64,000 nt of DNA from Tachypleus tridentatus (taxonomy: Eukaryota > Arthropoda > Merostomata > Xiphosura > Limulidae). Location of the stretch: positions 32,973,771-33,037,770 of the forward strand of contig NW_027467782.1 in NCBI RefSeq assembly GCF_004210375.1. Direction: 5' to 3'. Positions 19,007 through 64,000 of the stretch are shown here, piece after piece. The position numbers were made by a program, and so were the translations under genes. Position 1 is the stretch's first letter; each line of letters begins with the position of its first letter. The notes beneath the pieces were generated by a model. The model searched no databases. It had not been told where the DNA came from and saw nothing but the letters and a program-made list of their open reading frames with translations.

Positions 19007-19072
19007 AAAACCTTTATACTTTACATTTTTAGTAGATAATAGATACATAGATAAAAAAATAAACTACATTAC

Positions 19073-19210
19073 CTTCATCTCTCAAGTCTACATAAATACT
19101 CTTCTTTTCACTCTTATTTTCAACATCATCGTGGGAAAACTTGCATTTGTCACCTTTCTTACACTGTCCTTACTTATAAAAAACATACAGTACAGATTTA
19201 GGATCAGTTC
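19073..19210 (-). pseudogene. ZC3H15: ZC3H15 (DFRP1) CCCH zinc-finger exon, inactivated
   Basis: ZC3H15 is the partner that stabilises the translation-associated GTPase DRG1 in the cytoplasm (established knowledge). The minus-strand exon starts after AATTTCAG (19211) and ends before GGTAATG (19072), 138 bp. Its peptide, GTDPKSVLYVFYK, stop, [15 protein letters not shown], then [12 protein letters not shown], follows the family's [18 protein letters not shown] and ARDE landmarks. The codon for the first zinc-binding Cys is now TAT (Tyr), and a conserved Gln codon has become TAA (19170-19172). Splice sites are intact, so this is a duplicated genomic copy, not a retrocopy. The following exon was not found downstream. 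A sequencing error cannot explain both changes, since the other arm shares them. Confidence 0.85.
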
Positions 19211-21382
19211 CTGAAATTAAAATAGTTATATCACCTTTCTGCAAGAGATGAATATAACTGAACTGTAGCCTTGTTGAGAGTAACAAGATAAAACACTTCA
19301 ATGCTGTGGTATGTGATTTACATTAAACAGACTTTTATCACTTGTTTTGATTCACCCTAAGAATATCAGTGACCTAACTATTGAAAAACACACAAAAATT
19401 ATGAAAACTCATTTAATATTAAAGATAGTTATGTACAGTATAATAATTCATGCTTTTAGTTAATATGTACACAATACTTGTACCACACACTTGTTACATA
19501 AGTTGTTTTAATTTTTAAAGTTATAAAAAACAGATAAAATGTACCAACATGCATTTTTAAGATGTATAAAAATAACATTCATTAAAGTTACAGTAATATA
19601 ATAGCTTATGCTTTTTGTTTTGAATGAGTTTTAGCTACGTAAATAATGTCATTGTACTTATAAAGCCAATTATTGTTGGTTAGTCACAATTATCTACCTG
19701 ATTTATGTCTCTGCTAAGTGTTATAACTACAGAACTCATATGGAATAAAACTGTATTTCTTTCCAACCACTCCGAAAGAAAATATTTAACTCTCACTGAT
19801 AAAGAATAAATATTTATAATTACAAGTTATACATTAGTACAATTTTAGTGCCAGACCTTAAAAAAATAATGAAAAATAAATATTTAGAACTTTAAATGGG
19901 TGAAATTGTAAACCTGATGTTCCACACTTTAGAAATTCTTTTATATATGACTAATGCTAAAAAAATCCTCACTTATGTCAGGGAAATGTATCTCTAAAAG
20001 TAGAAAGCAAAGAGGTTCCATCTTTAAACACATTTAAGACTACATGTCAAGAGCAATATTAATATGGTAGAATACATCATGATGTATTTCAGTTTCTATA
20101 TAATACATAAGGTATAAAAAAACCATAATAATTCTGGAAAGTATTTTAACTTTTTCTTGAATAACTCAGTTTGAAAGATTCAACTTATGTTATTTGCTAT
20201 TTCTAAAAAATAATATCTTAAAATCCTTTATCACCAACTTAGACAGCCAGATCATTGATGTATCCAAAGATAATCTGTATTAATAACATTTTATGTAGTA
20301 ATTCTTAAAAGTCTTCAGTTAACTATAAAATCCTATGTTTTTTAGTACTATTAAACCTCACATTGACATATTCTCCTGCTCATTTTACACCACTTCAAAA
20401 CAAGCAAAAGCAACACTAGAAAAAAAGAAAAATCTTTGTATTTATATGTTTACAAAAACATGCCATATCAACATGTAGGGAGAGGTTAAGTGATTAACAA
20501 TATATCACATATTTCGTGATGACGAGAAACCAACTTGAAGTAAAAAATGTATTTCAGGACAACTGTTGCAAACTCCTTCTTTGTTAATCTGGAGATGACC
20601 TAAGAAGGTCAAAACATTGTTCTCAATTTTGTTTTGGTATCACCAGTTGTCCTAAGATACATATCACATACTTGTTATGTTACTGGAAAGTGATACAACA
20701 ATGGGAATATACAAATTTCAGAATTTCCTGCTCACACTCTCTATTGAATTACATAGAAATAACTTATGAGAAAGCTAGTCTAATCTAGCATTTGTATTAG
20801 GTAAAATTAAAATAATAAACCTTTACACTCCATACAAAAATTATACTGCACAACAATTTTTTTGAAATTTTTTGCTTCCTGAAAAGGTTTTGCTGATTGT
20901 GGCAGGTATCTGGTGGGAATGCACAAATATAGTTTTGGTTTTGCTTCATCAGTAGAAACTTTGAGAAATAGTCAGTTAACTGTTTACTGGCAATAACTTA
21001 TTTAATTGTGTTTATGTTTGTAATACACTATTAAGTTCAACATAATTAAAAGTGTTTTGCTCCTGATTTTGTTTGTATTCAATGTCCAGTGCATCACGTT
21101 CCAGTGTTCAAGAGTAGTCAGCAAGCATTGACAAATTCCAGTTGCCCTGATATTGTTTTCCCATTGTAGCAAAACTGAAGATTTCAATGAAATTATACGT
21201 AATGGGCAAATGTGGACGTGATTTTCATGATCAGCAGCCAAACATCTATAAGGAACACCCAACAGTGTTCAAGAAGCAAAAACTTTGTTGTGCAGTGTTA
21301 TCTAACATTAACTTCATTCTCCACAAGCAAGGAAAGGTGACAGAAAAAAACCTATTTCTTAATATAAAGAGTAGTATTTTAC
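19211..21382 (-). other. Intron of the ZC3H15 relic
   Basis: Intervening sequence of 2.17 kb between the two recognised exons, with GT-AG borders in minus orientation. It holds the hammerhead-like motif at 20556-20653 (plus strand) and otherwise nothing that I recognise. Confidence 0.6.
20556..20653 (+). ncRNA. Hammerhead-like three-way junction (decayed core)
   Basis: A perfect 10-bp outer helix AGGACAACTG (20556-20565) / CAGTTGTCCT (20644-20653) encloses CTGGAGA (20589-20595), a 4-bp helix GACC/GGTC (20597-20600/20607-20610) with loop TAAGAA, then AAAAC (20611-20615); AAAACA (20611-20616) can pair with TGTTTT about 16 bases on. This is the hammerhead layout (stem I, CUGANGA, stem II, GAAA, stem III). 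Two core bases differ from the active consensus (CTGA to CTGG and GAAA to AAAA), so catalysis is unlikely today. Related to 11312-11338; copied in the right arm at 62350-62447. Confidence 0.5.
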
Positions 21383-21469
21383 CTTTCTCATCTTTCTGTG
21401 TTGTTACAGATTTTAATGTCAAGTTCAGGTCCTCAATTTCCTTCTTTTTCTTCCTACTTGTTGATCTAC
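21383..21469 (-). pseudogene. ZC3H15: ZC3H15 (DFRP1) exon upstream of the zinc finger
   Basis: An 87-bp minus-strand exon, acceptor TTACCTTAG before 21469 and donor G|GTAAAATAC after 21383. It encodes RSTSRKKKKEIEDLNLTLKS then VTTQKDEKG, aligning with the Lys-rich KKKEL-ELNELFKPV segment that immediately precedes DPKSV in ZC3H15. The split Gly codon joins in phase to the exon at 19210. Here the frame is open, but the usual Phe-Lys-Pro core is replaced by Leu-Lys-Ser, consistent with relaxed constraint. The N-terminal KTFGLKNKKG exon was not found. Confidence 0.8.
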
Positions 21470-24400
21470 CTAAGGTAATGTGAGTAGAGGGTGATTACTC
21501 TTATATTACCAACAATTTGTTTGAACCTTTGTATCAATAACTTTAATAAACATGGCATACTATTTCACTGATTAAGTAAACAAATTATGCATTACAAAGA
21601 TAATTAGAGTTTTAAAATATTCAAAACATATTATGTAATAAATGTTCATTAAAAATAAAGAAAATGTGACAGCTGTTAAGATGAAAATTACACTTTATGA
21701 ATTTGACATTAATGTGGTACTTATAAGATAACTATATGGAAGTATTATTTTACACAGCCTTTCATACTGTTTTTCTTCATACTTTTCTACAGACAATGTT
21801 GATGATAATTATGAAATTACAAAGTGTTAAAGACATGTTAAAAGGTCAACAGAAAATTCTGCAGTTTCAAACACTGGTAAAAGTTAAGGTAGCCTTGGAT
21901 ACCTTGTTTGACTAATATTTTGAATGCTAATGCACTGTCTTCTCATAAGTTTATAAGAACTGACCACACCTTTTCAGCATGATATTAAAGCAGTAAAATG
22001 AAGTAAATAACACCCAGAATTTGCCTTTATCAGACCCAACTTAAATTCATCTGATCTATTTAGGATGTGTGTGTGTTGGTGTGCATCACCACTGAATATA
22101 CCCCAAATCAGTCATTTTCTGACCTCAACAAAGTATTTGGTTATTTCAAAATCAGATTTGATACACTAGCCAAAGAATACTATAAAAAACAGAAACAAGA
22201 AACAGTCTCATCTTTACCTGACACACCATCTCATGTGCACCAGACAAAACAATATCACCAAACAAGAAGCATCACAATGTAATTGAAAAAACAATTAGTC
22301 AACATGACTGTAATCCATCATTACTACACAACCTGTGTGAGGAAATTAGTTACTCACACAATCAGCAGAACTTCACAAGTAGCATGGAAATTTCTAAGGC
22401 AGACATAAAGACAGCTTTCTGTGCAAGATGTGAACTGCCTCTAAAAGATTAATTTTGATTACTGAATATTGAAGATGGTAATAATTGGACACACAAGTTG
22501 ATTATTTTCATAAAATTAATTGATTACTTTGCATGAAACTAACTCATGTATCAATTCTCATTCTGATTAAGAAATTTTGAAATTTAACCATGAATTTTGC
22601 AACAAGTTATTTTATGGTCTGGCCTAAAGCTAAGCAATGTAAATCTAATTCAGATAGTCAAAGTGAGAGAAAAATAGTGCCTCCATCAACACAGATAACA
22701 ATTTATTTTAGTTTCTGTTCATATACATTAAAATTACAAATGGTTGATATAAATAAATCAACTTTTTTTAGACTGTTTGCAAATTTTAACACTGCTTCCA
22801 CAGGCCAGACACCCAGGATTTGTGCTGAATGGCTATCCTTAATAAATAAAATCATTCTAGAATGAGCTAAAACTCACTTTTAGAGTTTTCTGGTTGAACA
22901 AAATCTCCTACAAAGTTTTATGAAAAAATATGCAGATTTAGTAATGCTATTGAAAGTTTTTGACTCCCATAGTACACAGTAGTAAACTTGGAAGATGTGT
23001 ATGTTATGTTATTAACTATTTGTTCTCATTCTTGCTCTTTGTTTTCAGAGTAGGTACAAAGGCCATGACCTTCACATCAGTGGGATAATTCTCATCTAGC
23101 TATTTCAAAAGTTTGTTCTTCAATCTATCTTTCATTTCTTTAAACATCATTGACTAGAATATCAGTGCAAGTATAACTTTTTCTGGCAAAACTTGTTGCA
23201 CATTATTGGCATATGAGAATAGTTTTGTATCATCAGATTTAATTGTATTTCCAGTCATGTTCATAAGATCATCTGGATCTCCTGGAAGTAATGTAGTACT
23301 AAAAATCCTTAATCCTGCCATGCAGAATGCAAGCAATCAACTGTTCTTTTCAAGAGCACTGAAACTTGATGCTTTTCATCGAGCTTCTTGATTTGGAAAG
23401 TTTAATGTTGTTGTGCATTCAATACCAAATTGAATCGGCATTGCTCCTGTGCCATGTTGAAATACCACAACGTCTTGCTTTTACACTTCAATTTTTGGAT
23501 TATCTGCATCATTCATTCAGTGTCACAAACTCCATGGGATCCTCAGAAGTTCTGCTAGACATTTCATCTTCATCACTCTCCAGTGGAATAGATGAATCAG
23601 TCCTTTATTTTCTCTTTCTTCATACTTTTAAATTACCTTGCAGTTCTTTCACACCTGTTTTTTATGCAATTTTGACCTCTAAGTCTGAACCATTACATCT
23701 ACACTGTCACTTTGAACTTACAAGTCACTTTCTTCTTTTCCTGTATCAATGTTACTTTATCAATACAGGATCAGCACACTTAATCACTGAATGTTGTAGC
23801 ATGTTGACATCTGTTTTGTGGCCAGCTGTAGATCAAATTTTCACAAAGTGTGCAACAGTTATCTGTATTTTGGCCAATCAGGTTTTGGTAAAGGTATCAA
23901 CCAATTAACTAAAGATCCGAAGTGACTGCAAAGTGCAATTATCTACCCATGCTGTTTTTTGGTCTTGTATCTGAATTTGATTTAATGAAAAACTATTTAA
24001 TATTATAAAAAACTAGTTTTTCATAGTTTAAAACTTGCACATAAAGAGTCATTAATACAATTAAGTTATAAAGAGAAGTACTTGCCCTGTTAAGTGCTCT
24101 TGAAGCTTTACTAGTTGCTTCACGTGTACAAGTGACAGTAAGAATAAAACCATAATAACCTGTAGGACTCACTCAACCACTAGAAATACCTTTTCTGATT
24201 ACAATAGAGCCACAATTCAAAGCACGTTTTCACCATTGCCTTTAAAGTCTAAAATTGTAAATTTACAATTTATGTAGTCCCAACTTATAAGTTATATACT
24301 AATAATTTCATTTTAAAATGTTGTCCAAATCTACTTACATAATTCGGCAGACACTACTTGTAATGAGAATGAACAATTATTAATTATGTGGTTAACTAAC
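21470..24400 (-). other. Region 5' of the ZC3H15 relic exons, unassigned open frames
   Basis: Contains several 70-180 codon frames on the plus strand (for example 22590-22865 and 23366-23908). The opposite strand of 23100-23700 reads, across stops, acidic and Ser-rich stretches such as LESDEDEMSSRTSEDPMEF and then MKDRLKNKLLK and LDENYPTDVKVMAFVPTL, faintly like the end of an hAT-type transposase. The match is too weak to name. The long plus-strand frame at 23366-23908 is probably the shadow of that decayed minus-strand sequence. Confidence 0.25.
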
Positions 24401-24880
24401 TCGTTTTCGTATTAACCCTCACAGACCAGCATTAGGCTTAGCAGCTACGATAAATTCAAGTTACAGTACATTTTTACAAGTACAAATATTGCACTGGTTA
24501 ATATTTACAATGTCCTTGTACACGACAATAAAATTTAAATATGTTTCACTTTTTTCTTCTTGTAAATTTTCTTTTCTGATTCGTTTGATTTTTCCTTGGG
24601 GTGATCACTTCACATAAATAAATCTATAAACATTTTACTGCATCATATCTTTTAACCCCAACGTATTGAATGCAATATTTTGCTTGCAAATTGTCAGTGA
24701 CCTGCGTAGTAAGCTACATGTGTTATCGAGCGACCTCTACAATTCCAAAAAAGTGCCAAGCGAATCTGCAAGAAAATTCTCGTCATATTAAGAATATTAA
24801 AAAGCTTACGTATGCTTATATTCTTGTCATTGTTAGTAGAATAGAATATTTTGTAATTCTAGCAGTATTATGAGGTTAAA

Positions 24881-24933
24881 AGGTGACAAATAGGACTTGG
24901 ATGATATCACAATAGTTGTCTCCAGATCCTAAG
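24881..24933 (+). other. Possible 5' exon end with strong donor
   Basis: TCCAGATCCTAAG|GTAAGTAATT at 24921-24943 is a near-consensus splice donor. The sequence before it has no long open frame, so if real it would be a 5' untranslated exon, oriented away from the ZC3H15 relic. The donor is preserved in the right arm (58070-58090, minus) but mutated in the diverged copy near 13000 (ACTTATCTT). No downstream exon was identified. Confidence 0.3.
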
Positions 24934-25009
24934 GTAAGTAATTAATGTGATTGTATTCTGTAATGTTTAATATTGCATTAGTACTAAAACTGGCGCTCAT
25001 GCCCACGAA

Positions 25010-25284
25010 GGCCCGGCATGGCCTAGCGCGTAAGGCGTGTGACTCGTAATACGAGGGTCGCGGGTTCGCGCCCGCGTCGCGCTAAACATGCTCGCCCTCC
25101 CAGCCGTGGGGGTGTATAATGTTACGGTCAATCCCACTATTCGTTGGTAAAGAGTAGCCCAAGAGTTGGCGGTGGGTGGTGATGACTAGCTGCCTTCCCT
25201 CTAGTCTTACACTGCTAAATTAGGGACGGCTAGCACAGATAGCCCTCGAGTAGCTTTGTGCGAAATTCCCAAACAAACAAACAA
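25010..25284 (+). mobile_element. SINE family A, full length, with target-site duplication
   Basis: Complete copy from GGCCCGGCATGGCCTAGCGC to an AAAC tail. The 11-bp target duplication ATGCCCACGAA flanks it (24999-25009, 25285-25295). The diverged inverted copy near 12930 has the unoccupied site, so this SINE was inserted after that older duplication. Confidence 0.95.
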
Positions 25285-25570
25285 ATGCCCACGAAATGTG
25301 TAAAGCTAAAATTCTACGTCGGATGTTGATCAAAGCTGGTAGTAGCGGTAGTTGTGAGTTTATTATTGCAATTACAAACTATAAATTAAAGTACTTCAAA
25401 GTGTATATGAGATTGGGATAAATGGCTCATTTATTATTTGAGTTCATATTGTTTTGTGATACAATAACTTGTAAGTTACTCAAAATTTCGAATAGAAAGA
25501 CTTACATTTTCAAAGCAGTATAGTTTTGTAATAAACTTTTCAAATTCGAGTGAAAATTCGTTGGATATCA

Positions 25571-25706
25571 GTTTGTTTGTTTGTTCAGAATTAAGCACAA
25601 AGCTGCACAATGGGCTATCTGTGCTCTGCCTACCATGGGCTTCGAAACCCTGGTTTTAGTGGTGTGAGCCTGCAAACAAACCGCTGTACCATTTGAGGCT
25701 TGGACA
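25571..25706 (-). mobile_element. SINE family B copy (left arm)
   Basis: Same insertion as 12588-12715 and 57320-57450, reverse orientation: tail TTTGTTTGTTTGTTC on plus, then GAATTAAGCACAAAGCTGC and head ending CCATTTGAGGCTTGG. Confidence 0.88.
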
Positions 25707-25935
25707 TCAGTATGAGCACCTTTCTAAAATCTAAATTGTATTTCATTAGGTGTCAATTAAGTCCTAAAACGTAACCTTAAGAATATTAACAATAGAAATA
25801 ATACATTTAGCAGATTAAGAATAAAATATTAGTTCTTAAAGCTATAGTCTTTGATTGACAATGTAGTACCAAAGAAACTGCTGTTGTGGCATATAACACA
25901 ACTCATTAAGGATGTTCATTCGAAGCATTCAATTT

Positions 25936-25967
<32 letters not shown>

Positions 25968-25975
25968 CATACATT
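25936..25975. repeat. (CA)n microsatellite passing into (TA)n
   Basis: About 12 CA units then ATATATATACATACAT. The equivalent position at 12335-12350 has only a short TATATATGTGTGTG, so the tract expanded or shrank after duplication. Confidence 0.9.
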
Positions 25976-26242
25976 CTTTTGGGATCACTGGCCATTAATA
26001 GGAAGCCAAAGGGTCTGATAATAATGAAGATGAAAAAGTTCTTAAACTGTTCAGTTACTTATTTTGCTTATGCTTGTGACGTTTTGGATAAAATACATAT
26101 AATTTTCACAATAAAAGATTATTACTTAAATCTCAAATATTTGCGTATTTTATACAAATTTATTATAAAAACATTTTCACCATTTCAGTGTTGATTTGAT
26201 AAAAATACACATGTACTGATTATACTTTATATATGTATATAT

Positions 26243-26463
26243 TTGTTTGTTTGTTTTGAATTTCGTGCAAAACTGCTCGAGGGCTATCTGCGCTAGACAT
26301 TCCTAATTTAGCAGTTTAAGACTAGAGGGAAGGCAGCTAGTCATCACCACCCAGCGCCAACTTTTGGGCTAATATTTTACCAACGAATAATGGGATTGAC
26401 CGTCACATTATAACCTTCCCACGGTTAAAAGGGCGAGCATGTTTAATGTGACGGGACTCTCAA
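26243..26463 (-). mobile_element. SINE family A part, tail side of a composite insertion
   Basis: Tail and body in reverse, up to the AACATGCTCGCCC block. With the head-side part at 26788-26937 it lies between 14-bp direct repeats ATATATGTATATAT (26229-26242 and 26938-26951); the copy near 12070 has this sequence once. Confidence 0.85.
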
Positions 26464-26787
26464 AGTAATTACAGGTATTAGAAAATATTTCTTCTGTCTG
26501 GTGATAAGGAGGAGTGAGAAACTTCAAATTCAGAAATAATCCACGAAGTACAAATGACTCAATAAAGGAAAATGAATACTGAATACTACATGTTGTCTTC
26601 GTTTCTTTGTATCAGAAACATTACGCGAAAAGTAAAACAACAAAATATGTTTTGTGAGGTGGATAGACTTAAAAGTACATTATTTTGTTATTTTGCTTCT
26701 CTTGTACTCCTGGAAGGTTCTACATTTATGTTATTTCCTCTGAGACCTGAATATCCACCTCGGTGTTTGCCTTATATGGAGACTGCT
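26464..26787. other. Unassigned insert between two SINE parts
   Basis: 324 bases absent from the diverged copy near 12070 and unlike SINE sequence. A plus frame crosses it (26572-26868) but carries no motif and runs into the SINE. Confidence 0.5.
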
Positions 26788-26937
26788 ACTCCTTTACCAA
26801 CGAATAGTGGGATTGACTGTAACATTATAAAGCCCCCATGGCTGGGTGGGCGAGCGTGTTTGGTGTGACCGGGATTCGTACCCGTGACCCTCGGATTCCC
26901 GAGTCGAACACCTTAACACGCTTGGCCATGTCGGGCC
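26788..26937 (-). mobile_element. SINE family A part, head side of a composite insertion
   Basis: Contains the tRNA-like head in reverse (GGATTCGTACCCGTGACCC, GGCCATGTCGGGCC) and the first part of the body. It overlaps in consensus position with 26243-26463 (both include ACGAATAGTGGGATTGAC), so the two are not simply halves of one element. Confidence 0.85.
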
Positions 26938-27121
26938 ATATATGTATATATACAGTCATAAACTTTCGCAGTTTGTAAAACAATTTTAAAAATATTTTTA
27001 GCATAATATTTTTACAATTTGAGTTATCTATAAGTATATAAGATAACGTGTACACTCTTGCATAATTTTAAAAGGTAATAGTTTTTATACATTTAATTAT
27101 TTTCCTACTGTAAATTGTTGC

Positions 27122-27316
27122 TTTGTTTTTGAATTTTGCGCAAAGCTACTCGAGGGCTACCTGCGCTAGTTGTCCCTAATTTAAGACTAGAGGGAAGGTT
27201 GCTAGTCATCACCACCCAATGCCAACTCTTGAACTACTCTTTTACCAACGTACAGTTGGATAGACTGAACCATTATAACGCCTCCACAGCTGAAAGGTCA
27301 AGCATGTTTGGTAAAA
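27122..27316 (-). mobile_element. SINE family A, head-truncated
   Basis: Tail and body in reverse (GCGCAAAGCTACTCGAGGGC, TAGAGGGAAGG, CATCACCACCC). It stops at AGCATGTTTGG, so the tRNA-like head is missing; a short internal deletion removes the AGCAGTG segment. Confidence 0.85.
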
Positions 27317-28808
27317 GACTAACCTAGGTAGTTAAGGTAGTGTTTTGTAAAATATAATCACATTTCAGTTACATTATGTATGTATGTATATTATTACTAT
27401 TTTCAAATTAATTTTTAAATTTCAGTCATTATTCATAAAACAGAAAACTATGTGAACAAATATAGAAAATAATTATCTTTGCTACCTACAAATGTTAAGG
27501 TTTATACTTGCTTGGCATAAACTGTAAACATTGTTAAATTTGGCACGAGAAAAATATAAAACAAAATAATCTTTTTAAATTTTATATATGCATTTTGAAA
27601 TGACAAAAAAAATATATAAATTATTATGTAAATGCCATAGAATTTCACTGCAATGTATCAAGGCTACCAACTAAGCAGCATTTGGGTCTAAAAAATACAT
27701 CCAATCTCCATTTTGTCTATATTTAAAAAAGGTGGTTCTTTAGTACTTAAGCCTTGCAAAGGCTGAGAAAAGAATGTGAAGGAGAAGTCTGAGCTTTTGA
27801 TTTGCTATGTATACCTCATGAAGTGCAGTGGGTTATGTGTAAAAATATGGTTTCAAAAATGGAAAAGGAGACAGAGCAATTATGGTGGATTCATTGAACA
27901 GAATGATATCTCAGGACACAGAAAATATAAGAGGTTCTTATTTTATATTCCAGCTTGCAATATTAATAATTTGAGTTTGTAACTCATAAGAAACTAGAGA
28001 TGTTGTATTGTGAGCTTTATAAAATGTAATATGACCAAACACATCACATGACAAAAAAAACTGATATTTAGCAATCTTATTTTGATATTTATTTTCAAAT
28101 TAAGAAATTAAATAATGTATAGTTTTATGCCAAATTTACTGACATGAATTTATAAAATAGTAGTTCAATAATATTTTGAATATAACTCTACAAACATGAT
28201 AACATGCCCTCTGCCTCCAATCCATAGGAAATTTGCCTCGATGGGGTTAATCACTACAAAAATTATGCTTTGCCTGAGTAGTAACAATATTATAATAAGT
28301 AATTTACATCAGTTCCATATTCCTTGAAGGGATAGTAAATTAATTAGAGAGGAGACTTAGGGAGTAGACATCACAATTTTCATACTGTATAAAATTAAGA
28401 ACTCAAACTGACATAATATTACATGTTTTAACATTTGATTTATTATCTTTATTTGTGACCATCTTTATTTGAAGATGTTGATACTACTATCATGATATTC
28501 TGTAAAAGGGTTGCAAAGTGCAGAAAAGGGTGCTTGTATAGAAAATGTTAAACATAAAAATATAAAGACAAATTAGATTTAAAGGAAAAAATAGTAAAAT
28601 TTATCAGAAGATGTTAATTCAACAGTGTTTGTAAAATGCAACATAACCCTGAAATTGTCAAGCCAAGTCATTCAGCATAGATGTATATGATATAATGATG
28701 AATTTGATTGATGAAGAAAAATTCTGAGTGTGAAAAACATATACTTATACTGTGTAAGAAATTTAGCAATAAAATATTTTGTGAAATAAACAACCTAGGC
28801 ACACACAC
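27317..28808. other. Non-coding DNA downstream of the ATR relic
   Basis: I searched the minus strand for the next ATR exon (the block with GDLI and LHFG-SL-YG) and did not find it. A purine-rich stretch at 27755-27960 (GAAAAGGAGACAGAGCAAT) stands out but encodes nothing I recognise. Confidence 0.5.
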
Positions 28809-28984
28809 CTTTTCTTTTCTGATTTCTCTAATGTAGTCATAACTCGGTCATAATACTTGGCTAAATGGAAGTGACCTTCTTCCCGTTCAGGCTGAATGGC
28901 AACCACATCTCGGTACATTAGAATAAGGGCATTACTCTCCAAGACAGCCGATTCTTCACTATATTTGGCAAGCATTAATGTTGC
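28809..28984 (-). pseudogene. ATR: ATR kinase FAT-domain exon (relic, frame open)
   Basis: ATR is the large PI3K-related kinase that signals replication stress in the nucleus; this exon belongs to its helical FAT domain, not the catalytic part. It runs from an acceptor ATCTTTATTAG to a donor AAAAG|GTGTGTGTG, 176 bp, phase 0 start and phase 2 end. The peptide contains KYSEESAVLESNALILMYRD and EEGHFHLAKYYDRVM, matching the family's MEETA-FESNA and GHF-LAKYYDKLM landmarks. The normally invariant Trp of the PEWEDGHF motif is Arg (CGG) here. The exon is open, but its partner at 42052-42191 is broken, so I call the locus a pseudogene; a fast-evolving functional paralog is the alternative. Confidence 0.8.
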
Positions 28985-52429: not shown

Positions 52430-53115
52430 GTCTCTTATAGGAGTGCTATCCAACACAGTTGCCATGGACTTGATTGGACAACTAACACCTGACATGAGCA
52501 ATATGTATGTGATGATAGTAGCTATGTAACACTTTACCCAGAAGCCATAGCACTACCAAAGACAGAGAAACTCGCAGAAACCTTCCTTATAGGTGTTCTG
52601 CAGAGAAGGGTTTTAAAAAGAAGTCTCAAGTGACAGAGGGACCTAGTTTACCTCAAAATTGATTCAAGAGGTGTGCAGACTCATCAGCACTAAGCAGCTC
52701 TTTGCAAGACAGTTGATGACGTCCTAAAGAGCATGATGAAAATGTTCGAGAAAAGACCACGTGACCAGGACAAGTACCTCCAGGCAGTAGTATTTGCTTA
52801 TTAATAATTCTCGTATGTAAATATAAGATTTTCAGTATTCATGTTACTGCATGGAAGAGCAGTATGAGGTCCAATGCGGATACTGTGAAAACTGTTCACA
52901 GAAGAAGAAGAGTCAGAAGTGATGCGCATATACCAATATGTGTTAGACCTAAGAAACCAACTGTAGAAGACTTGTCAACTCACTCAAACAAGTTTGTATG
53001 CAGCCGATGTCAGACAGAAATGCTTCTATGATAAGAAGTCCAAGGATTAACATTTCAGAAAGAAGGTTTCTGTTCCTTAAAGACACAACAAACTCATCTG
53101 AAGGTTAGTAATTTT
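52430..53115 (+). pseudogene. Integrase region of the LTR element
   Basis: Fragments in order: AMDLIGQLTPDMSNMYVMIV (first catalytic Asp block), YPEAIALPKTEKLAETFLIG, RPRDQDKYLQAVVFAY, FSVFMLLHGRAV, GPMRIL and YQYVLDLRNQL. They correspond to VAVDL-GP, RYPEAVPL, QW-RYI-ALLFAYRE, FSPFELLYGR-VRGPM-IL and YQYV-DLRERL. Stops and shifts separate them; the second catalytic Asp segment is not preserved. Confidence 0.8.
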
Positions 53116-53229
53116 CACACACAAAAAAAATGAAAATCTGAGACCACTGGGTGTAGATGACATGTACAAAAGTGTCAACATCAATGAAGAAATTAATGAC
53201 AAATTGAAGAAAGAAGTAGCAGTGTGCAC

Positions 53230-53800
53230 CTGTCTCCACAGACAGATAAAGCCAGACAGACTGTGACCATGACCAAGAACTCAGTCAAAGTGAAGCCCTA
53301 CCAAATGTTCTACATAATAAAAGCCTGATTAAGCTAAAAGTTAAAGTAATGTTAGAAGCTGGAATAACTGGGCCTTTGAATTAAGTTTACTGTTCACTGG
53401 TGGTAATCATGAAGACCATGAATGTCTCACAACCATCTGTACAGATTTCCAGAAAATAAACTTTATGACAGAATTTGGCTCCAAACCTATGGGCAACCCA
53501 GATGCTATTGCAGTGAAAATAAATGGGCCCAAGTTCTTCACTAAGGTCAATCTCAGAAAAGTGTATTGGCAAAGTTTCAAGAGAAGACAGCCTTTTTGAC
53601 ACCTGATGAATGGTACCAATTCAAGAAAGATGCCATCTGGATTAATCAATTCAGCAGCAGCATTCAACTTCTTGATGAGAAAAATGTTGCAAAAAACCCA
53701 CCAACATTGTGTACGATGTAACCATCTGAAGAAACTCAGGGATCTGTTCAGAAAGACACTGAGCAGTGAGATCTGTGACTCAAGAAGTGTTTGGCCACCA
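53230..53800 (+). pseudogene. Reverse transcriptase region of the LTR element
   Basis: VKPYQMFYIIKA-like entry, VMLEAGITGPLN, LTTICTDFQKINFMTEFGSK, PMGNPDAIAVKINGPKFFTK, VNLRKVYWQ, EKTAFLTPDEWYQFKKDAIW and LINSAAAFNFLMRKML correspond to the gypsy RT blocks (MLDAGII-PSN, RFC-DFRKLN, PMP-PD, YF-K-DLSKGYWQ, KTAF-TPDG-YQF--MPFG-INSAATF-RMMRKML). The Asp-Asp catalytic box after this is destroyed and RNase H is not seen. Confidence 0.82.
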
Positions 53801-54189
53801 TACTGACATTTGGAACTTCTTCAACAGTCTGTATGGAAGGAGTTCATCATCCAAATGAATCATCAACCACTTGACTTATAAAACTGAATGTGCAATAATC
53901 ATGAGTTAGGTATTGTACCCCAAGAACTTCTGGTCCCACACTGAATCCAACAAGAGGACTGCAAATGTTGGTGCAAGACTGTATGAGTAGATTTTTTGGA
54001 TGAACTGGAAACAGTCTTTGTATATAGTACAAAAAATAATTGTAAACACGTTTCTTAAAGAGAAGCTTATTGTTATATCCACACAAGTGTTTAAGTTTAT
54101 TGTAAGTGTTATTACTTAAGTAGTATAAGAGAGAGTGTTCAATTTAGTTATTTTTAGTAGCAGTAGTTTATAATTACTTTTCTGTGTAC

Positions 54190-54715
54190 GAATCACAGAC
54201 TGTGATTTATACTTGCTGTACTATTGCATTATTTTATTAGAAACTTCTAACTTTTTCTCATTGTTTTGATTGAATATTATTTTATCACAATAATTCATAA
54301 TGTGAAAAATGTTTAAGACCTCTGTGAGGTTATAAAAATGTGTGTCAAAAATGTAGTTTGGGTTAGTTTGATTGAACAGATAGATCTAGCCTGTGTGATT
54401 GTGAGTTTAGCCATAAAAAGCATATATTGGTGATTTCTAACTTGAAATTATCACAAACTATATTGTAACAACATAGAAGCCAAGAATTAATTTGTTTTGT
54501 AAATTGGATTCTAAAGTAACTGGACCAGGCTATGTGGATTTTGATGAAAAGAAGACAAGTATTTAATGCTCTAGATACAACTGTGCTAGCAAATAATGAA
54601 AAAAACATTTGTTTATACATTTTAATTGTTTTAATACATTATTACCTGAAATAAGAGAACTGTATGCTGTTTGTTTGTTATTGAAATTTGTTGCCAAGTC
54701 CCACACACCAACTAT
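54190..54715 (+). repeat. 3' LTR (approximate borders)
   Basis: Direct repeat of 50050-50575 (GTGAGTTTAGCCATAAAAAG, GAAATTATCACAAACTATAT, TTGTAACAACATAG, AGATACAACTGTGCTAGC). By eye roughly a quarter of positions differ from the 5' copy, so the insertion is old. Confidence 0.65.
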
Positions 54716-55440
54716 AAAGAATCCAGCCCATATATATATACATATATATATTTATATATACAATAAACTAAAACACCCTGACAACAAACAAGGTAAACAG
54801 ATGCAAATCTCTATGTCACCTGTTCCAAATAAATAGCTAGATTTAAAATAAAAGCCACACCTATGATAAACAAATGCACATACTTATTTTAATCTGTTTC
54901 AAATAAATAGCTAAATTTAAACTAAGAACTATTACTATGATACAGATACACATACTTATTTTCATCCCTTTCAAATAAATGACTAGATTTCAACTATATA
55001 CAACAACTACAATAAGTAGATGTACATAGTTCTTTAAAGGGAGCCATTTTCTTTTCCCATGATGTAGATTTAGTTTGAATATTCATACAGTGTAGATAAT
55101 ATATATACATACATACAATAACAATTACAAAATATGATACTTTTGTTGATATTATATTTTCTTGACTAATAAGTACTAGCAAAAAAAGACTATTTGTTTT
55201 TAAAATTACAAAATAGTTTTCCACTACAGTTTATGGAATCAATGAAATGGACAATCTTAGCTCACCTTTTACTATGTAAGAGAACTCATAATTTTTCAAA
55301 CTGTGTGACTTAAAAAAGGACATGAACTCAAGTGTTCTTGTTTTAATATATATTATTTATTATTTGAATGTTTACTCACACAATAATATTCCAAACATAA
55401 CTCATAAACAACTTGATATATCTTATATATGAGTTCTGAT
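54716..55440. other. AT-rich DNA with (TA)n tract and a diffuse short repeat
   Basis: TATATATACATATATATATT at 54728-54764. Between 54830 and 54990 a block of about 70 bp (TTTCAAATAAATRRCTARAT, followed by AAACTA and CACATACTTATTTT) occurs three times. No gene. Confidence 0.65.
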
Positions 55441-55469
55441 CAAAAAGATTTCTTCTGTTACAGGTGCCA

Positions 55470-56642
55470 GTACAGAGGCAGTAAGCTTTACTGAGGTGTG
55501 TACAAAGTACAAATAGTGATCTACCTCACGGATAAACCACTTATCCAGACCTTATACCCGTGTTCAAAGACAGAAGCATCTCTTGCTTCTGTTGAAATAT
55601 AAATGGACAGAAAATAAAAGCAACATGTTTGCATCAAATTTTTATGAAAAATGGTACAGTAGGAACAGAAATCATTGAAATGTTAAGAACTGCTTTTAAT
55701 TATGATTGCTTAAGTAAAACTGTTGTTTATCAGTGGATAAAACACTTCCAAGATGTCCAGAAATCAGTCAAAGATGACGACCATTCTGGGCAATCACCGA
55801 CATCATCCACTGATGAAATGGTTGCTAAGATGAAAGAAAATAGTCAAAGTCATCAAAGATTAACTATTCATGAAATTGCTGACAAACTGAACATTTCCTT
55901 TGCATTATGTCATGTGATTTTAGCTGAAAAACTCTGCATGTGTCAAGTGTCTGCAAAATTTTTTCCAAGGCTGTTGATGGATGACCAAAAGTTTCACCAT
56001 CAACAAGTGTGTGAGGATTTGAAAAGAAGGCTAGAAATTGATCCAAATTTCATCAACATCATTATTACTGGTGATTGAGTCATGGGTACACAGTTATGAC
56101 CCTGAAACGAAATTTCAGTCACCCCAGTGGAAATCTCCATCATCACCACTTCCAAAAAAAACATGACAGTCTTGATCAAATGTAAAGACAATGTTGATCG
56201 TGTTTTTTGATGTTCAAGGTATTGTTCATCATGAATGCGTGCCTAATGGCCAGACAGTTAACCAAGCATTTTATAAAAAGGTCCTAATTTGCTTGAGGGA
56301 AGAAATTAGAAGAAACTGCTGCGAGCTGTGGAAAATGATTATTGGTTTCTCTGTCACGACAATGCACCTTCACATAGTGCTGTATCTGTTCAAGAACGTT
56401 TGGCAGAAAGAAACATTCCTGTGATACCACACCCCCTGTAATCTCCCAATCTTGCCACATGTGATTTTGTTCTGTTCCCAAAAATCAAAATTAAGTTGAA
56501 AGGAAGGTGATTTGATGACATTCCAACCATCCACAATTGTGTGAAAGCAGAACTTAGTCACACAAAAGTTGAAGGCTTTCGAAAATGGCAGGAACATCAG
56601 GACAAGTGTGTATTAGCTGGAGGATATAATATATTACTGATG
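55470..56642 (+). pseudogene. mariner transposase relic, cut by the assembly gap
   Basis: A 149-codon open frame (55629-56078) has the paired helix-turn-helix part: KNGTVGTEIIEMLRTAFNYD, LSKTVVYQWIKHFQD, DDHSGQSPTSSTDEMV, RLTIHEIADKLNIS, then IIITGD, the first catalytic Asp. After a stop, a second frame (56191) gives FFDVQGIVHHECVPNGQTVN and FYKKVL. After a shift come WFLCHDNAPSHSAVSVQERL (second Asp) and NLATCDFVLFPKIKIKLKGR (third Asp), 34 residues apart, so DD34D spacing is preserved. The tail FRKWQEHQDKCVLAGG precedes the gap. Dead through at least one stop and two frame changes. Terminal repeats not identified. Confidence 0.88.
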
Positions 56643-57142
56643 NNNNNNNNNNNNNNNNNNNNNNNNNNNNNNNNNNNNNNNNNNNNNNNNNNNNNNNNNN
56701 NNNNNNNNNNNNNNNNNNNNNNNNNNNNNNNNNNNNNNNNNNNNNNNNNNNNNNNNNNNNNNNNNNNNNNNNNNNNNNNNNNNNNNNNNNNNNNNNNNNN
56801 NNNNNNNNNNNNNNNNNNNNNNNNNNNNNNNNNNNNNNNNNNNNNNNNNNNNNNNNNNNNNNNNNNNNNNNNNNNNNNNNNNNNNNNNNNNNNNNNNNNN
56901 NNNNNNNNNNNNNNNNNNNNNNNNNNNNNNNNNNNNNNNNNNNNNNNNNNNNNNNNNNNNNNNNNNNNNNNNNNNNNNNNNNNNNNNNNNNNNNNNNNNN
57001 NNNNNNNNNNNNNNNNNNNNNNNNNNNNNNNNNNNNNNNNNNNNNNNNNNNNNNNNNNNNNNNNNNNNNNNNNNNNNNNNNNNNNNNNNNNNNNNNNNNN
57101 NNNNNNNNNNNNNNNNNNNNNNNNNNNNNNNNNNNNNNNNNN
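56643..57142. other. Assembly gap, exactly 500 N
   Basis: A run of exactly 500 undetermined bases, a length that Hi-C scaffolders insert by default. True distance and even adjacency of the flanks are unknown. The mariner relic runs into it from the left and the inverted-duplication arm starts at its right edge. Confidence 0.98.
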
Positions 57143-57319
57143 AGTTTCTTTGGTACTACATTGTCAATCAAAGACTATAGCTTTAAGAACTAATATTTTA
57201 TTCTTAATCTGCTAAATGTATTATTTCTATTGTTAATATTCTTAAGGTTACGTTTTAGGACTTAATTGACACCTAATGAAATACAATTTAGATTTTAGAA
57301 AGGTGCTCATACTGATGTC

Positions 57320-57450
57320 CAAGCCTCAAATGGTACAGCGGTTTGTTTGCAGGCTCACACCACTAAAACCAGGGTTTCGAAGCCCATGGTAGGCAGAGCA
57401 CAGATAGCCATTGTGCAGCTTTGTGCTTAATTCTGAACAAACAAACAAAC
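57320..57450 (+). mobile_element. SINE family B copy (right arm)
   Basis: Counterpart of 25571-25706: CCAAGCCTCAAATGGTACAG head, GGGTTTCGAAGCCC, AGCTTTGTGCTTAATTC and an AAAC tail. Confidence 0.88.
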
Positions 57451-57735
57451 TGATATCAACAATTTTCACTCGGAATTTGAAAAGTTTATTACAAAACTAT
57501 ACTGCTTTGAAAATGTAAGTCTTTCTATTCAGAAATTTTGAGTAACTTACAAGTTATTGTATCACAAAACAATATGAACTCAAATAATAAATGAGCCATT
57601 TATCCCAATCTCATATACACTTTGAAGTACTTTAATTTATAGTTTGTAATTGCAATAATAAACTCACAACTACCGCTACTACCAGCTTTGATCAACATCC
57701 GGCGTTAGAATTTTAGCTTTACACATTTAGTGGGC

Positions 57736-58013
57736 ATTTGTTTGTTTGTTTGAATTTAGCACAAAGCTACTCGAGGGGCTATCTGTGCTAGCCGTCCCTA
57801 ATTTAGCAGTGTAAGACTAGAGGGAAGGCAGCTAGTCATCACCACCCACCGCCAACTCTTGGGCTACTCTTTACCAACGAATAGTGGGATTGACGTAACA
57901 TTATACACCCCACGGCTGGGAGGCGAGCATGTTTAGCGCTGACGGCCTTGACGAACCAGCGACCCTCGGATTACGAGTCCACCGCCTTCACAGCTAGGCC
58001 ATGCCGGACCTTC
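57736..58013 (-). mobile_element. SINE family A copy (right arm)
   Basis: Counterpart of 25010-25284 in reverse, tail TTTGTTTGTTTG at 57738. Several single-base gains and losses in the head (about 57930-58010) not seen in the left arm. Confidence 0.9.
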
Positions 58014-61000
58014 GTGGGCATGGCGCCAGTTTTAGTACTAATGCAATATTAAACATTACAGAATACAATCACATTAATTACTTACCTTAGGATCTGGAGA
58101 CAACTATTGTGATATCATCCAAGTCCTATTTGTCACCTTTTAACCTCATAATACTGCTAGAATTACAAAATATTCTATTCTACTAACAATGACAAGAATA
58201 TAAGCATACGTAAGCTTTTTAATATTCTTAATATGACGAGAATTTTCTTGCAGATTCGCTTGGCACTTTTGGAATTGTAGGGTAAATTCGATAACACATG
58301 TAGCTTACTACGGGTCACTGACAATTTGCAAGCAAAATATTGCATTCAATACGTTGGGGTTAAAGATATGATGCAGTAAAATGTTTATAGATTTATTTAT
58401 GTGAAGTGATCACCCCAAGGAAAAATCAAACGAATCAGAAAAGAAAATTTACAAGAAGAAAAAAGTGAAACATATTTAAATTTTATTGTCGTGTACAAGG
58501 ACATTGTAAATATTAACCAGTGCAATATTTGTACTTGTAAAAATGTACTGTAACTTGAATTTATCGTAGCTGCTAAGCCTAATGCTGGTCTGTGAGGGTT
58601 AATACGAAAACGAGTTAGTTAACCACATAATTAATAATTGTTCATTCTCATTACAAGTAGTGTCTGCCGAATTATGTAAGTAGATTTGGACAACATTTTA
58701 AAATGAAATTATTAGTATATAACTTATAAGTTGGGACTACATAAATTGTAAATTTACAATTTTTAGACTTTAAAGGCAATGGTGAAAAACGTGCTTTGAA
58801 TTGTGGCTCTATTGTAATCAGAAAAAGGTATTTCTAGTGGTTGAGTGAGTCCTACAGGTTATTATGGTTTTATTCTTACTGTCACTTGTACACGTGAAGC
58901 AACTAGTAAAGCTTCAAGAGCACTTAACAGGGCAAGTACTTCTCTTTATAACTTAATTGTATTAATGACTCTTTATGTGCAAGTTTTAAACTATGAAAAA
59001 CTAGTTTTTATAATATTAAATAGTTTTTCATTAAATCAAATTCAGATACAAGACCAAAAACAGCATGGGTAGATAATTGCACTTTGCAGTCACTTCGGAT
59101 CTTTAGTTAATTGGTTGATACCTTTACCAAAACCTGATTGGCCAAAATACAGATAACTGTTGCACACTTTGTGAAAATTTGATCTACAGCTGGCCACAAA
59201 ACAGATGTCAACATGCTACAACATTCAGTGATTAAGTGTGCTGATCCTGTATTGATAAAGTAACATTGATACAGGAAAAGAAGAAAGTGACTTGTAAGTT
59301 CAAAGTGACAGTGTAGATGTAATGGTTCAGACTTAGAGGTCAAAATTGCATAAAAAACAGGTGTGAAAGAACTGCAAGGTAATTTAAAAGTATGAAGAAA
59401 GAAAATAAAGGACTGATTCATCTATTCCACTGGAGAGTGATGAAGATGAAATGTCTAGCAGAACTTCTGAGGATCCCATGGAGTTTGTGACACTGAATGA
59501 ATGATGCAGATAATCCAAAAATTGAAGTGTAAAAGCAAGACGTTGTGGTATTTCAACATGGCACAGGAGCAATGCCGATTCAATTTGGTATTGAATGCAC
59601 AACAACATTAAACTTTCCAAATCAAGAAGCTCGATGAAAAGCATCAAGTTTCAGTGCTCTTGAAAGAACAGTTGATTGCTTGCATTCTGCATGGCAGGAT
59701 TAAGGATTTTTAGTACTACATTACTTCCAGGAGATCCAGATGATCTTATGAACATGACTGGAAATACAATTAAATCTGATGATACAAAACTATTCTCATA
59801 TGCCAATAATGTGCAACAAGTTTTGCCAGAAAAGTTATATTTGCACTGATATTCTAGTCAATGATGTTTAAAGAAATGAAAGATAGATTGAAGAACAAAC
59901 TTTTGAAATAGCTAGATGAGAATTATCCCACTGATGTGAAGGTCATGGCCTTTGTACCTACTCTGAAAACAAAAAGCAAGAATGAGAACAAATAGTTAAT
60001 AACATAACATACACATCTTCCAAGTTTACTACTGTGTACTATGGGAGTCAAAAACTTTCAATAGCATTACTAAATCTGCATATTTTTTTCATAAAACTTT
60101 GTAGGAGATTTTTGTTCAACCAGAAAACTCTAAAAGTGAGTTTTAGCTCATTCTAGAATGATTTTATTTATTAAGGATAGCCATTCAGCACAAATCCTGG
60201 GTGTCTGGCCTGTGGAAGCAGTGTTAAAATTTGCAAACAGTCTAAAAAAAGTTGATTTATTTATATCAACCATTTGTAATTTTAATGTATATGAACAGAA
60301 ACTAAAATAAATTGTTATCTGTGTTGATGGAGGCACTATTTTTCTCTCACTTTGACTATCTGAATTAGATTTACATTGCTTAGCTTTAGGCCAGACCATA
60401 AAATAACTTGTTGCAAAATTCATGGTTAAATTTCAAAATTTCTTAATCAGAATGAGAATTGATACATGAGTTAGTTTCATGCAAAGTAATCAATTAATTT
60501 TATGAAAATAATCAACTTGTGTGTCCAATTATTACCATCTTCAATATTCAGTAATCAAAATTAATCTTTTTTAGAGGCAGTTCACGTCTTGCACAGAAAG
60601 CTGTCTTTATGTCTGCCTTAGAAATTTCCATGCTACTTGTGAAGTTCTGCTGATTGTGTGAGTAACTAATTTCCTCACACAGGTTGTGTAGTAATGATGG
60701 ATTACAGTCATGTTGACTAATTGTTTTTTCAATTACATTGTGATGCTTCTTGTTTGGTGATATTGTTTTGTCTGGTGCACATGAGATGGTGTGTCAGGTA
60801 AAGATGAGACTGTTTCTTGTTTCTGTTTTTTATAGTATTCTTTGGCTAGTGTATCAAATCTGATTTTGAAATAACCAAATACTTTGTTGAGGTCAGAAAA
60901 TGACTGATTTGGGGTATATTCAGTGGTGATGCACACCAACACACACACATCCTAAATAGATCAGATGAATTTAAGTTGGGTCTGATAAAGGCAAATTCTG

Positions 61001-61545
61001 GGTGTTATTTACTTCATTTTACTGCTTTAATATCATGCTGAAAAGGTGTGGTCAGTTCTTATAAACTTATGAGAAGACAGTGCATTAGCATTCAAAATAT
61101 TAGTCAAACAAGGTATCCAAGGCTACCTTAACTTTTACCAGTGTTTGAAACTGCAGAATTTTCTGTTGACCTTTTAACATGTCTTTAACACTTTGTAATT
61201 TCATAATTATCATCAACATTGTCTGTAGAAAAGTATGAAGAAAAACAGTATGAAAGGCTGTGTAAAATAATACTTCCATATAGTTATCTTATAAGTACCA
61301 CATTAATGTCAAATTCATAAAGTGTAATTTTCATCTTAACAGCTGTCACATTTTCTTTATTTTTAATGAACATTTATTACATAATATGTTTTGAATATTT
61401 TAAAACTCTAATTATCTTTGTAATGCATAATTTGTTTACTTAATCAGTGAAATAGTATGCCATGTTTATTAAAGTTATTGATACAAAGGTTCAAACAAAT
61501 TGTTGGTAATATAAGAGTAATCACCCTCTACTCACATTACCTTAG
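58014..61545 (+). other. Region 5' of the right-arm ZC3H15 exons
   Basis: Mirror of 21470-24990, with the same decayed frames and no named gene. A stretch at 58857-58935 (GFILTVT-like) recalls the FI-VT residues of the ZC3H15 exon that should lie here, but two residues in common is not enough to claim it. Confidence 0.25.
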
Positions 61546-61632
61546 GTAGATCAACAAGTAGGAAGAAAAAGAAGGAAATTGAGGACCTGAACTTGACATT
61601 AAAATCTGTAACAACACAGAAAGATGAGAAAG
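61546..61632 (+). pseudogene. ZC3H15: ZC3H15 exon upstream of the zinc finger (right arm)
   Basis: 87 bp, acceptor ACCTTAG, donor G|GTAAAATAC; identical in content to 21383-21469 (RSTSRKKKKEIEDLNLTLKS). The frame is open and in phase with 63799. Confidence 0.8.
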
Positions 61633-63798
61633 GTAAAATACTACTCTTTATATTAAGAAATAGGTTTTTTTCTGTCACCTTTCCTTGCTTGTGGAGAATG
61701 AAGTTAATGTTAGATAACACTGCACAACAAAGTTTTTGCTTCTTGAACACTGTTGGGTGTTCCTTATAGATGTTTGGCTGCTGATCATGAAAATCACGTC
61801 CACATTTGCCCATTACGTATAATTTCATTGAAATCTTCAGTTTTGCTACAATGGGAAAACAATATCAGGGCAACTGGAATTTGTCAATGCTTGCTGACTA
61901 CTCTTGAACACTGGAACGTGATGCACTGGACATTGAATACAAACAAAAAATCAGGAGCAAAACACTTTTAATTATGTTGAACTTAATAGTGTATTACAAA
62001 CATAAACACAATTAAATAAGTTATTGCCAGTAAACAGTTAACTGACTATTTCTCAAAGTTTCTACTGATGAAGCAAAACCAAAACTATATTTGTGCATTC
62101 CCACCAGATACCTGCCACAATCAGCAAAACCTTTTCAGGAAGCAAAAAATTTCAAAAAAATTGTTGTGCAGTATAATTTTTGTATGGAGTGTAAAGGTTT
62201 ATTATTTTAATTTTACCTAATACAAATGCTAGATTAGACTAGCTTTCTCATAAGTTATTTCTATGTAATTCAATAGAGAGTGTGAGCAGGAAATTCTGAA
62301 ATTTGTATATTCCCATTGTTGTATCACTTTCCAGTAACATAACAAGTATGTGATATGTATCTTAGGACAACTGGTGATACCAAAACAAAATTGAGAACAA
62401 TGTTTTGACCTTCTTAGGTCATCTCCAGATTAACAAAGAAGGAGTTTGCAACAGTTGTCCTGAAATACATTTTTACTTCAAGTTGGTTTCTCGTCATCAT
62501 GAAATATGTGATATATTGTTAATCACTTAACCTCTCCCTACATGTTGATATGGCATGTTTTTGTAAACATATAAATACAAAGATTTTTCTTTTTTTTTCT
62601 AGTGTTGCTTTTGCTTGTTTTGAAGTGGTGTAAAATGAGCAGGAGAATATGTCAATGTGAGGTTTAATAGTACTAAAAACATAGGATTTTATAGTTAACT
62701 GAAGACTTTTAAAATTACTACATAAAATGTTATTAATACAGATTATCTTTGGATACATCAATGATCTGGCTGTCTAAGTTGGTGATAAAGGATTTTAAGA
62801 TATTATTTTTTAGAAATAGCAAATAACATAAGTTGAATCTTTCAAACTGAGTTATTCAAGAAAAGTTAAAATACTTTCCAGAATTATTATGGTTTTATAC
62901 CTTATGTATTATATAGAAACTGAAATACATCATGATGTATTCTACCATATTAATATTGCTCTTGACATGTAGTCTTAAATGTGTTTAAAGATGGAACCTC
63001 TTTGCTTTCTACTTTTAGAGATACATTTCCCTGACATAAGTGAGGATTTTTTAGCATTAGTCATATATAAAGAATTTCTAAAGTGTGGAACATCAGGTTT
63101 ACAATTTCACCCATTTAAAGTTCTAAATATTTATTTTTCATTATTTTTTTAAGGTCTGGCACTAAAATTGTACTAATGTATAACTTGTAATTATAAATAT
63201 TTATTCTTTATCAGTGAGAGTTAAATATTTTCTTTCGAGATTGGTTGGAAAGAAATACAGTTTTATTCCATATGAGTTCTGTAGTTATAACACTTAGCAG
63301 AGACATAAATCAGGTAGATAATTGTGACTAACCAACAATAATTGGCTTTATAAGTACAATGACATTATTTACGTAGCTAAAACTCATTCAAAACAAAAGC
63401 ATAAGCTATTATATTACTGTAACTTTAATGAATGTTATTTTTATACATCTTAAAATGCATGTTGGTACATTTTTTATCTGTTTTATAACTTTAAAAATTA
63501 AAACAACTTATGTAACAAGTGTGTGGTACAAGTATTGTGTACATATTAACTAAAAGCATGAATTATTATACTGTACATAACTATCTTTAATATTAAATGA
63601 GTTTTCATAATTTTTGTGTGTTTTTCAATAGTTAGGTCACTGATATTCTTAGGGTGAATCAAAACAAGTGATAAAAGTCTGTTTAATGTAAATCACATAC
63701 CACAGCATTGAAGTGTTTTATCTTGTTACTCTCAACAAGGCTACAGTTCAGTTATATTCATCTCTTGCAGAAAGGTGATATAACTATTTTAATTTCAG
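61633..63798 (+). other. Intron of the right-arm ZC3H15 relic
   Basis: 2.17 kb, GT-AG borders, mirror of 19211-21382, including the hammerhead-like motif (minus strand, about 62350-62447). Confidence 0.6.
62350..62447 (-). ncRNA. Hammerhead-like junction (right-arm copy)
   Basis: Reverse complement of 20556-20653, with the same two core changes. The outer helix AGGACAACTG/CAGTTGTCCT is intact except possibly at its edges. Confidence 0.45.
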
Positions 63799-63934
63799 GA
63801 ACTGATCCTAAATCTGTACTGTATGTTTTATAAGTAAGGACAGTGTAAGAAAGGTGACAAATGCAAGTTTTCCCACGATGATGTTGAAAATAAGAGTGAA
63901 AAGAAGAGTATTTATGTAGACTTGAGAGATGAAG
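63799..63934 (+). pseudogene. ZC3H15: ZC3H15 CCCH zinc-finger exon, frameshifted (right arm)
   Basis: 136 bp after AATTTCAG and before GGTAATG. It carries the same Cys-to-Tyr and Gln-to-stop changes as 19073-19210, and in addition a T run of four instead of six (63826-63829) that shifts the frame. The 2-base difference fits an allelic or sequencing-type homopolymer change. Downstream [15 protein letters not shown] and RDE residues are unchanged. Confidence 0.85.
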
Positions 63935-64000
63935 GTAATGTAGTTTATTTTTTATCTATGTATCTATTATCTACTAAAAAATGTAAAGTATAAAGGTTTT

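Follow-up and report, generated by a model that had tools for sequence, protein, structure and literature searches.

A near-identical inverted pair across a scaffold gap in Tachypleus tridentatus consists of copies of an amplified, satellite-linked repeat unit

Results

An inverted match that ends at a scaffold gap

The stretch of DNA analyzed here, referred to as the window, comprises 64,000 nucleotides of scaffold C19 (69.8 Mb) of Tachypleus tridentatus (C19:32973771-33037770), in an assembly of 2.17 Gb and 205 contigs, and it contains two near-identical sequence arms in opposite orientation with a gap between them. Comparison of the window with itself by BLASTN paired 19007-25879 with 64000-57143 on the minus strand at 98.75% identity over 6,892 columns, with 33 mismatches and 43 gap openings, in exact agreement with an earlier note that had described 57143-64000 as the reverse complement of 19007-25879 with few differences. 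The length of 6.9 kb given there holds for the part inside the window and not for the whole, as the addition of flanking sequence, 30 kb on the left and 50 kb on the right, extended the match past the window to 8885-25879 against 74086-57143 (coordinates outside the window are given as window equivalents). The full-length alignment spans 17,042 columns (17.0 kb) at 98.5% identity, with 108 mismatches and 114 gap openings. A chance match was ruled out because identical runs as long as 1,362 bases occur in both arms. As had also been noted, the match starts at the first base past a 500-N gap, and this gap is the sole run of N within the window. The features of the pair are as follows.

8885..25879, plus strand: full left arm, pairing with 74086-57143; 19007-25879 is the part with its partner inside the window
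8885..10700, plus strand: outer part of the arm, with 73 substitutions between left and right, about 4-5%
10701..24600, plus strand: core of the arm, with 33 substitutions between left and right, 16 of them isolated, and more insertions and deletions (indels) than substitutions
25880..56642, plus strand: spacer, ending at the gap; its two probed stretches, 25880-29880 and 52900-56642, also occur elsewhere as part of the repeat unit of the arm
56643..57142, no strand: scaffold gap between two contigs, 500 N
57143..64000, minus strand: part of the right arm inside the window; the arm runs on to 74086, followed by satellite to 97171 and then a second 500-N gap

The right arm belongs to a contig of 40,029 bp (57143-97171) with a 500-N gap at either end, the second of which lies to the right of the window at 97172-97671. 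The left contig, of 94,708 bp, extends from a gap at C19:32935205-32935704 up to window position 56642. A true palindrome would have contiguous sequence through its center, and here the N gap occupies the inner edge of the right arm.

The arms are parts of an amplified repeat unit

Probes of 0.9-4 kb, representing six positions in the window plus the outer block of the right contig, were searched against the genome with at most 40 candidate matches scored per search, making all counts lower bounds. These searches identified the arms as parts of an amplified unit, linked to satellite and about 44-69 kb long, that is present in dozens of copies, mostly on C19. Every probe returned many near-identical genomic copies (at least dozens, mostly on C19), and 172 C19 matches taken from six of the searches fell into at least 50 clusters, a count that leaves out matches on C3, C4, C6, C8, C9, C11, C14, and C103 as well as those to a dispersed element described below. 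Several clusters (24.48, 28.67, 35.76, and 37.84 Mb) preserve the sequence order from 6900 to at least 52900 over 44-69 kb. One of the copies, designated A (C19:37.84-37.91 Mb), is in step with the arm and the spacer from 19007 to 56625.

Neither edge of the arm is an edge of the repeat, since other copies run beyond both 8885 and 25879. The outer position was crossed by 36 of 37 other copies scored for 6900-10900 (the right arm not being among those scored), and the inner position was crossed, by at least 497 bp, in all seven copies fetched around 25000-25879, three of which reach 26376 and four at least 27344. The possibility that the arm edges are transposon edges was rejected for the same reason. 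The inner edge is instead the end of the right contig, inside the repeat, and the start of the match at the gap, previously taken as a telling coincidence, loses that meaning when a contig ends in a many-copy repeat that continues in 7/7 fetched copies. Contigs of this region frequently stop within the repeat. Three other inverted pairs were inspected and each has a 500-N gap between its members; a control pair of copies in direct orientation is likewise gapped. The gap between the arms is thus evidence neither for nor against either an artificial or a real duplication, and we dropped it as proof of an artefact.

The two arms are nearest relatives among the copies compared

Judged by their sequences, the left and right arms are sisters, each the nearest relative of the other among the copies compared, as indicated by match scores, by sites in common against another copy, and by a common lack of about 0.5 kb. 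With 59400-63400 of the right arm as query, the left arm ranked first among 37 other copies scored (7,070 bits, with 7,040 for the next among the matches listed). Over 19007-21006, the right arm differs from the left by 6 substitutions and from copies A-E by 16-23. In a comparison with copy B that covered about 9.1 kb, 39 differing sites are common to both arms, one is found on the left alone and 68 on the right alone, 45 of these 68 lying below 11000. Copy B also marks the following site.

13367..13368, no strand: position of 518 bp of extra sequence in copy B, absent in both arms; the extra sequence itself was located in B only

To follow this length difference, 19 other copies with matches on both sides of 13367 were checked, of which 11 are collinear and eight differ by -4.8 to +19.4 kb. 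Between 10900 and 19007, all 11 collinear copies, B included, are longer than the left arm by 443-509 bp. The arms are therefore closer to each other than to other copies, as the arms of a palindrome are, except in the outer 1.8 kb.

This kinship bears on the proposal, made in the earlier note, that the right contig represents the second allele of the left locus and was set down in reverse on the far side of the gap, which would be a heterotype false duplication. In its favor are the rank of the left arm as top match of the right among the 37 others scored, the absence from both arms of about 0.5 kb that 11/11 collinear copies seem to have, and the 16 isolated substitutions by which the 13.9-kb core differs. 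A gap between the members of a same-scaffold pair is also a trait listed for false duplications in the part of the account that describes them (PMC9516828); its presence here (500 N, 56643-57142) is a weak pointer, since the direct-orientation pair is gapped too. Near-identity in this family is not restricted to alleles, however, as copy A, 4.9 Mb away at 37.87 Mb, differs from the left arm by only 8 substitutions over 3.9 kb, one of them isolated, though by 12 over 19007-21006.

The right contig is a mosaic with an excess of indels

The differences between right and left are unevenly distributed, with 73 substitutions in 8885-10700 (43 transitions and 30 transversions) and 26 in 24601-25879. 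The outer 1.8-kb block of the right arm is at most 95% identical to each of 39 other copies scored; the left copy reaches 95%, as does one other copy that scores higher than the left. At 74086, the right arm passes directly into a 40-bp satellite that fills the rest of its contig, whereas the left copy runs 10.7 kb further and reaches satellite of the same family only at -1869. A genome search tolerating up to 3 mismatches found this junction of arm and satellite a single time, and the left and right satellites are not near-identical, being at most about 90% alike among the left-right matches listed. From a simple allele of the left locus, such a difference in the outer flank would not be expected, and false duplications, as we read their definition, represent one locus and have matching flanks, while the outer flanks here differ. 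The allelic origin proposed in the earlier note was thus not established, given an outer block at least 5% diverged from 39 copies and a unique satellite junction at a position where the left copy still has 10.7 kb to run. Both the diverged block and the junction follow directly, with no added steps, if the right contig is a separate copy overwritten by conversion or is chimeric, and we infer that the mosaic arose in one of these ways, from a different copy or a chimeric contig, and not from an allele.

Outside the outer block, many of the right-left differences look like consensus error. The whole arm alignment contains 100 indel events, 84 of which are of one base type. Between 11000 and 19006, private indels number 33 on the right (28 deletions and 5 insertions), 11 on the left (3 and 8), and 19 in B (13 and 6), and in 24500-25879 the right has 25 substitutions and 14 indels, compared with 0-5 and 0-1 in the other eight copies. 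The right contig is the richest of all copies in private indels in three of the four stretches compared, and this excess suggests that it had few reads of its own. A dispersed repeat of about 250 bp, the putative short interspersed nuclear element (SINE) of the earlier note, was observed at 839-1084, 3135-3397, 25009-25286, 57737-58011, and other positions; 15 of the 26 right-left substitutions beyond 24600 lie at 25012-25078, within its first part.

Of the 16 isolated core sites, 14 could be polarized by other copies, and 12 of these are changed on the right and two on the left (two-sided binomial, 0.013). Alleles should be even in this respect, unless many of the 12 are errors, and the skew points to errors behind some of the right-hand differences. 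The two left-derived sites suggest, by the same sequence comparison, that the right arm was read from another molecule, which weakens the possibility that it is a second reading of the same molecule as the left. The substitutions private to the right may not be purely sequencing error, as the spectrum of the isolated differences (14 transitions and 2 transversions) resembles the genuine divergence between left and B (21 and 2). With these points on both sides, we consider an allele of the left locus a rather unlikely origin of the right contig.

In a real inverted pair, the copies would lie opposite one another at a distance of about 31 kb or more, with gene conversion from arm to arm homogenizing the core while the edge keeps its older divergence of ~5%. 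Conversion between arms would leave an identical core and a diverged outer edge, and the arms do have a near-identical core and an outer edge that diverges before flanks that are not homologous. The unit family itself holds older inverted duplications: 4.6 kb are reverse-paired at 95.3% within one gap-free stretch (L029-L031), and a further candidate is an inverted internal piece that recurs at C19 7.48, 31.50, and 33.21 Mb, each time spaced by 18.5-18.6 kb, so that a true inverted duplication in this family is possible. For the present pair it is very unlikely, as the arms are not joined by contiguous sequence, the indel excess points to a right contig with few reads of its own, and the cluster of copy A, which keeps step with the spacer, shows no inverted arm among the matches listed. 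The recent duplication with a 31-kb spacer and an ability to mediate inversion that the earlier note had envisaged likewise has no contiguous sequence behind it, and a sister copy lacks the inverted arm among the matches listed.

Discussion

A scaffold join as the probable origin of the inverted pair

On balance, we regard it as probable that the right contig is a mosaic or separately located copy that was set beside the left arm by the scaffolder, and the pair is accordingly not evidence of a true palindrome. In the assembly, the inverted arrangement depends on a scaffold join between two copies of one amplified unit on C19. The right contig, 40 kb of poor consensus quality, joins satellite to a 1.8-kb block with a divergence of at least 5% and then to about 15 kb that nearly match the left, and it ends within the repeat, a region difficult to assemble. 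Its position and direction beside the left would be the choice of the scaffolder, making the placement or the direction arbitrary. The scaffolding error suspected in the earlier note survives in this form, given that a gap separates the arms, the left arm is nearest of 37 scored, and the right is rich in indels in 3/4 stretches.

Several observations weigh against this explanation. The arms are mutually closest among the copies compared, share alleles, and together lack about 0.5 kb, which random placement would not explain. At two of the 14 polarized sites the change is on the left and the right has the common base, suggesting that the right is more than a noisy re-reading of the left molecule. 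The spectrum of the isolated right-left differences looks like that of real divergence, and no error excess was found in the 23560-24500 stretch of the right arm.

For counts of genes, SINEs, and rearrangements in this region, the arms should not be treated as a palindrome, and neither arm should be removed as a haplotig unless read depth supports it. The region consists of many copies of the 44-69 kb unit, interrupted by frequent gaps, and inverted neighbors in it may often be effects of joins.

A satellite that reverses direction at conserved sites

The satellite beside the arms, with blocks that flip at fixed sites, is a more interesting feature than the inverted match itself.

C19:32935705-32971901 (window equivalent -38065 to -1869) and 74090-97171, both directions: 40-bp satellite in alternating blocks

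Its direction reverses about every 0.75 kb, with block medians of 620-779 bp. Blocks of at least 100 bp number 34 in 28.1 kb on the left (33 switches) and 37 in 23.1 kb on the right (36 switches), with no N inside, so the satellite reverses many times within one contig, as a macro-dyad does. Plus-to-minus switches carry a one-base variant of the monomer in 14/16 cases on the left and 15/18 on the right, and minus-to-plus switches carry another variant in 14/17 and 18/18. The exact variants lie at switches in 29/29 and 32/32 of their occurrences and nowhere else in these two arrays, which are the same arrays from which the variants were chosen; within them, the conserved, diverged switch-site sequences of a macro-dyad are present. 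In 8 kb of the left contig's array kept out of this choice (L038), 13 more switches were found, with the exact strings occurring just 2 + 2 times, and six of seven plus-to-minus switches there retain the junction core by eye. Two arrays of the same satellite on C3 (L036, L037) keep a single direction, one over 8.0 kb and the other over 5.4 kb. Genome-wide, 21,053 occurrences of a 26-base segment of the monomer were counted, compared with 0 for a control.

The satellite is the part with the wider meaning. If confirmed on reads, it would indicate that switching arrays with conserved sites exist outside Tribolium, and the contrast between switching arrays on C19 and one-direction arrays on C3 could be used to test the effect of the switches. 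It is conceivable, and in our estimate decidedly unlikely, that C19 has a domain with inverted symmetry at two scales, in which the 40-bp satellite switches direction and the 44-69 kb units lie both ways with arms that convert each other, the window pair being a live example. If true, such symmetry would add an animal lineage outside beetles to the few direction-switching satellites found described, those of Tribolium and Chionographis, and the one-direction arrays on C3 would serve as an internal comparison.

Other elements in and around the unit

The remaining features of the window are as follows.

27338..27344, plus strand: 7-bp overlap site; in other copies, 9/9 joinable match pairs lie 8.0-14.2 kb apart (extra sequence)
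43479..46839, minus strand: decayed fragments resembling long interspersed nuclear elements, with reverse transcriptase and endonuclease pieces, both below Pfam cut-offs; two of five open reading frames scanned matched
55424..56623, plus strand: dispersed element, 75-82% alike on C1, C2, C7, C10, C11, and C13, with a weak Pfam HTH_23 match only

The left copy and copy A are without the extra 8.0-14.2 kb at 27338-27344, reflecting either an insertion in the others or a loss in these two. The element at 55424-56623 we take, by eye, to be mariner-like. The unit also contains an internal inverted repeat (12062-12734 with 25552-26242, 85% identity), and a tandem array at 48099-49104 has a 61-bp period and 16.6 copies with 95% matches. 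Of the four open reading frames listed for the arms, one was scanned, and it matched no known protein family. The mitochondrial contig C205 (L017) has the order nad2-cox1-cox2-atp6 with cox1 and cox2 abutting (nad2, cox2, and atp6 named by eye), a gene order that suggests a chelicerate or myriapod and that we take to be unlike that of a beetle; this order and the 2.17-Gb genome also set the host of the C19 satellite apart from Tribolium.

Comparison with known systems

Palindromes of sex chromosomes and ampliconic regions have near-identical inverted arms with gene conversion from arm to arm. The pair described here resembles them in its near-identical inverted arms and in an identity that drops at the outer edge, and differs in having an N gap at its center and arms that are two of dozens of copies. 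False duplications, in the portion of the published account that defines them, are divided into heterotype, marked by half depth, and homotype, marked by very low depth (PMC9516828). Like those described in that portion, our pair is near-identical and on one scaffold, with a gap between its members and one member rich in errors; unlike them, it belongs to a family of dozens of copies in which an extra copy need not be false, and its outer flanks differ (PMC9516828).

Mixed, frequently alternating satellite direction is a known kind of organization, found in Tribolium and in the holocentric plant Chionographis japonica. In the satellite literature, as far as partial coverage extends, no further animal case of direction-switching arrays was found beyond Tribolium. 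The macro-dyad arrays of Tribolium madens, in the sections of the report that treat them, reverse direction at conserved variant switch sites in blocks of several kb, form megabase pericentromeric domains, and were confirmed on raw reads (PMC13081366). The C19 satellite likewise reverses at conserved variant switch sites; it is unlike the arrays covered in those sections in its 40-bp monomer, its blocks of ~0.75 kb, and its one-directional copies on C3 (PMC13081366). The Chio satellites of Chionographis japonica, with monomers of 23 and 28 bp in mixed, frequently alternating direction, are centromeric and bound by CENH3 in the sections of the two reports that describe them (PMC10264360, PMC12722358). 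Those sections describe no conserved switch-site variants such as the C19 satellite has, and the resemblance between the two satellites is in their short monomers and their mixture of forward and reverse direction (PMC10264360, PMC12722358).

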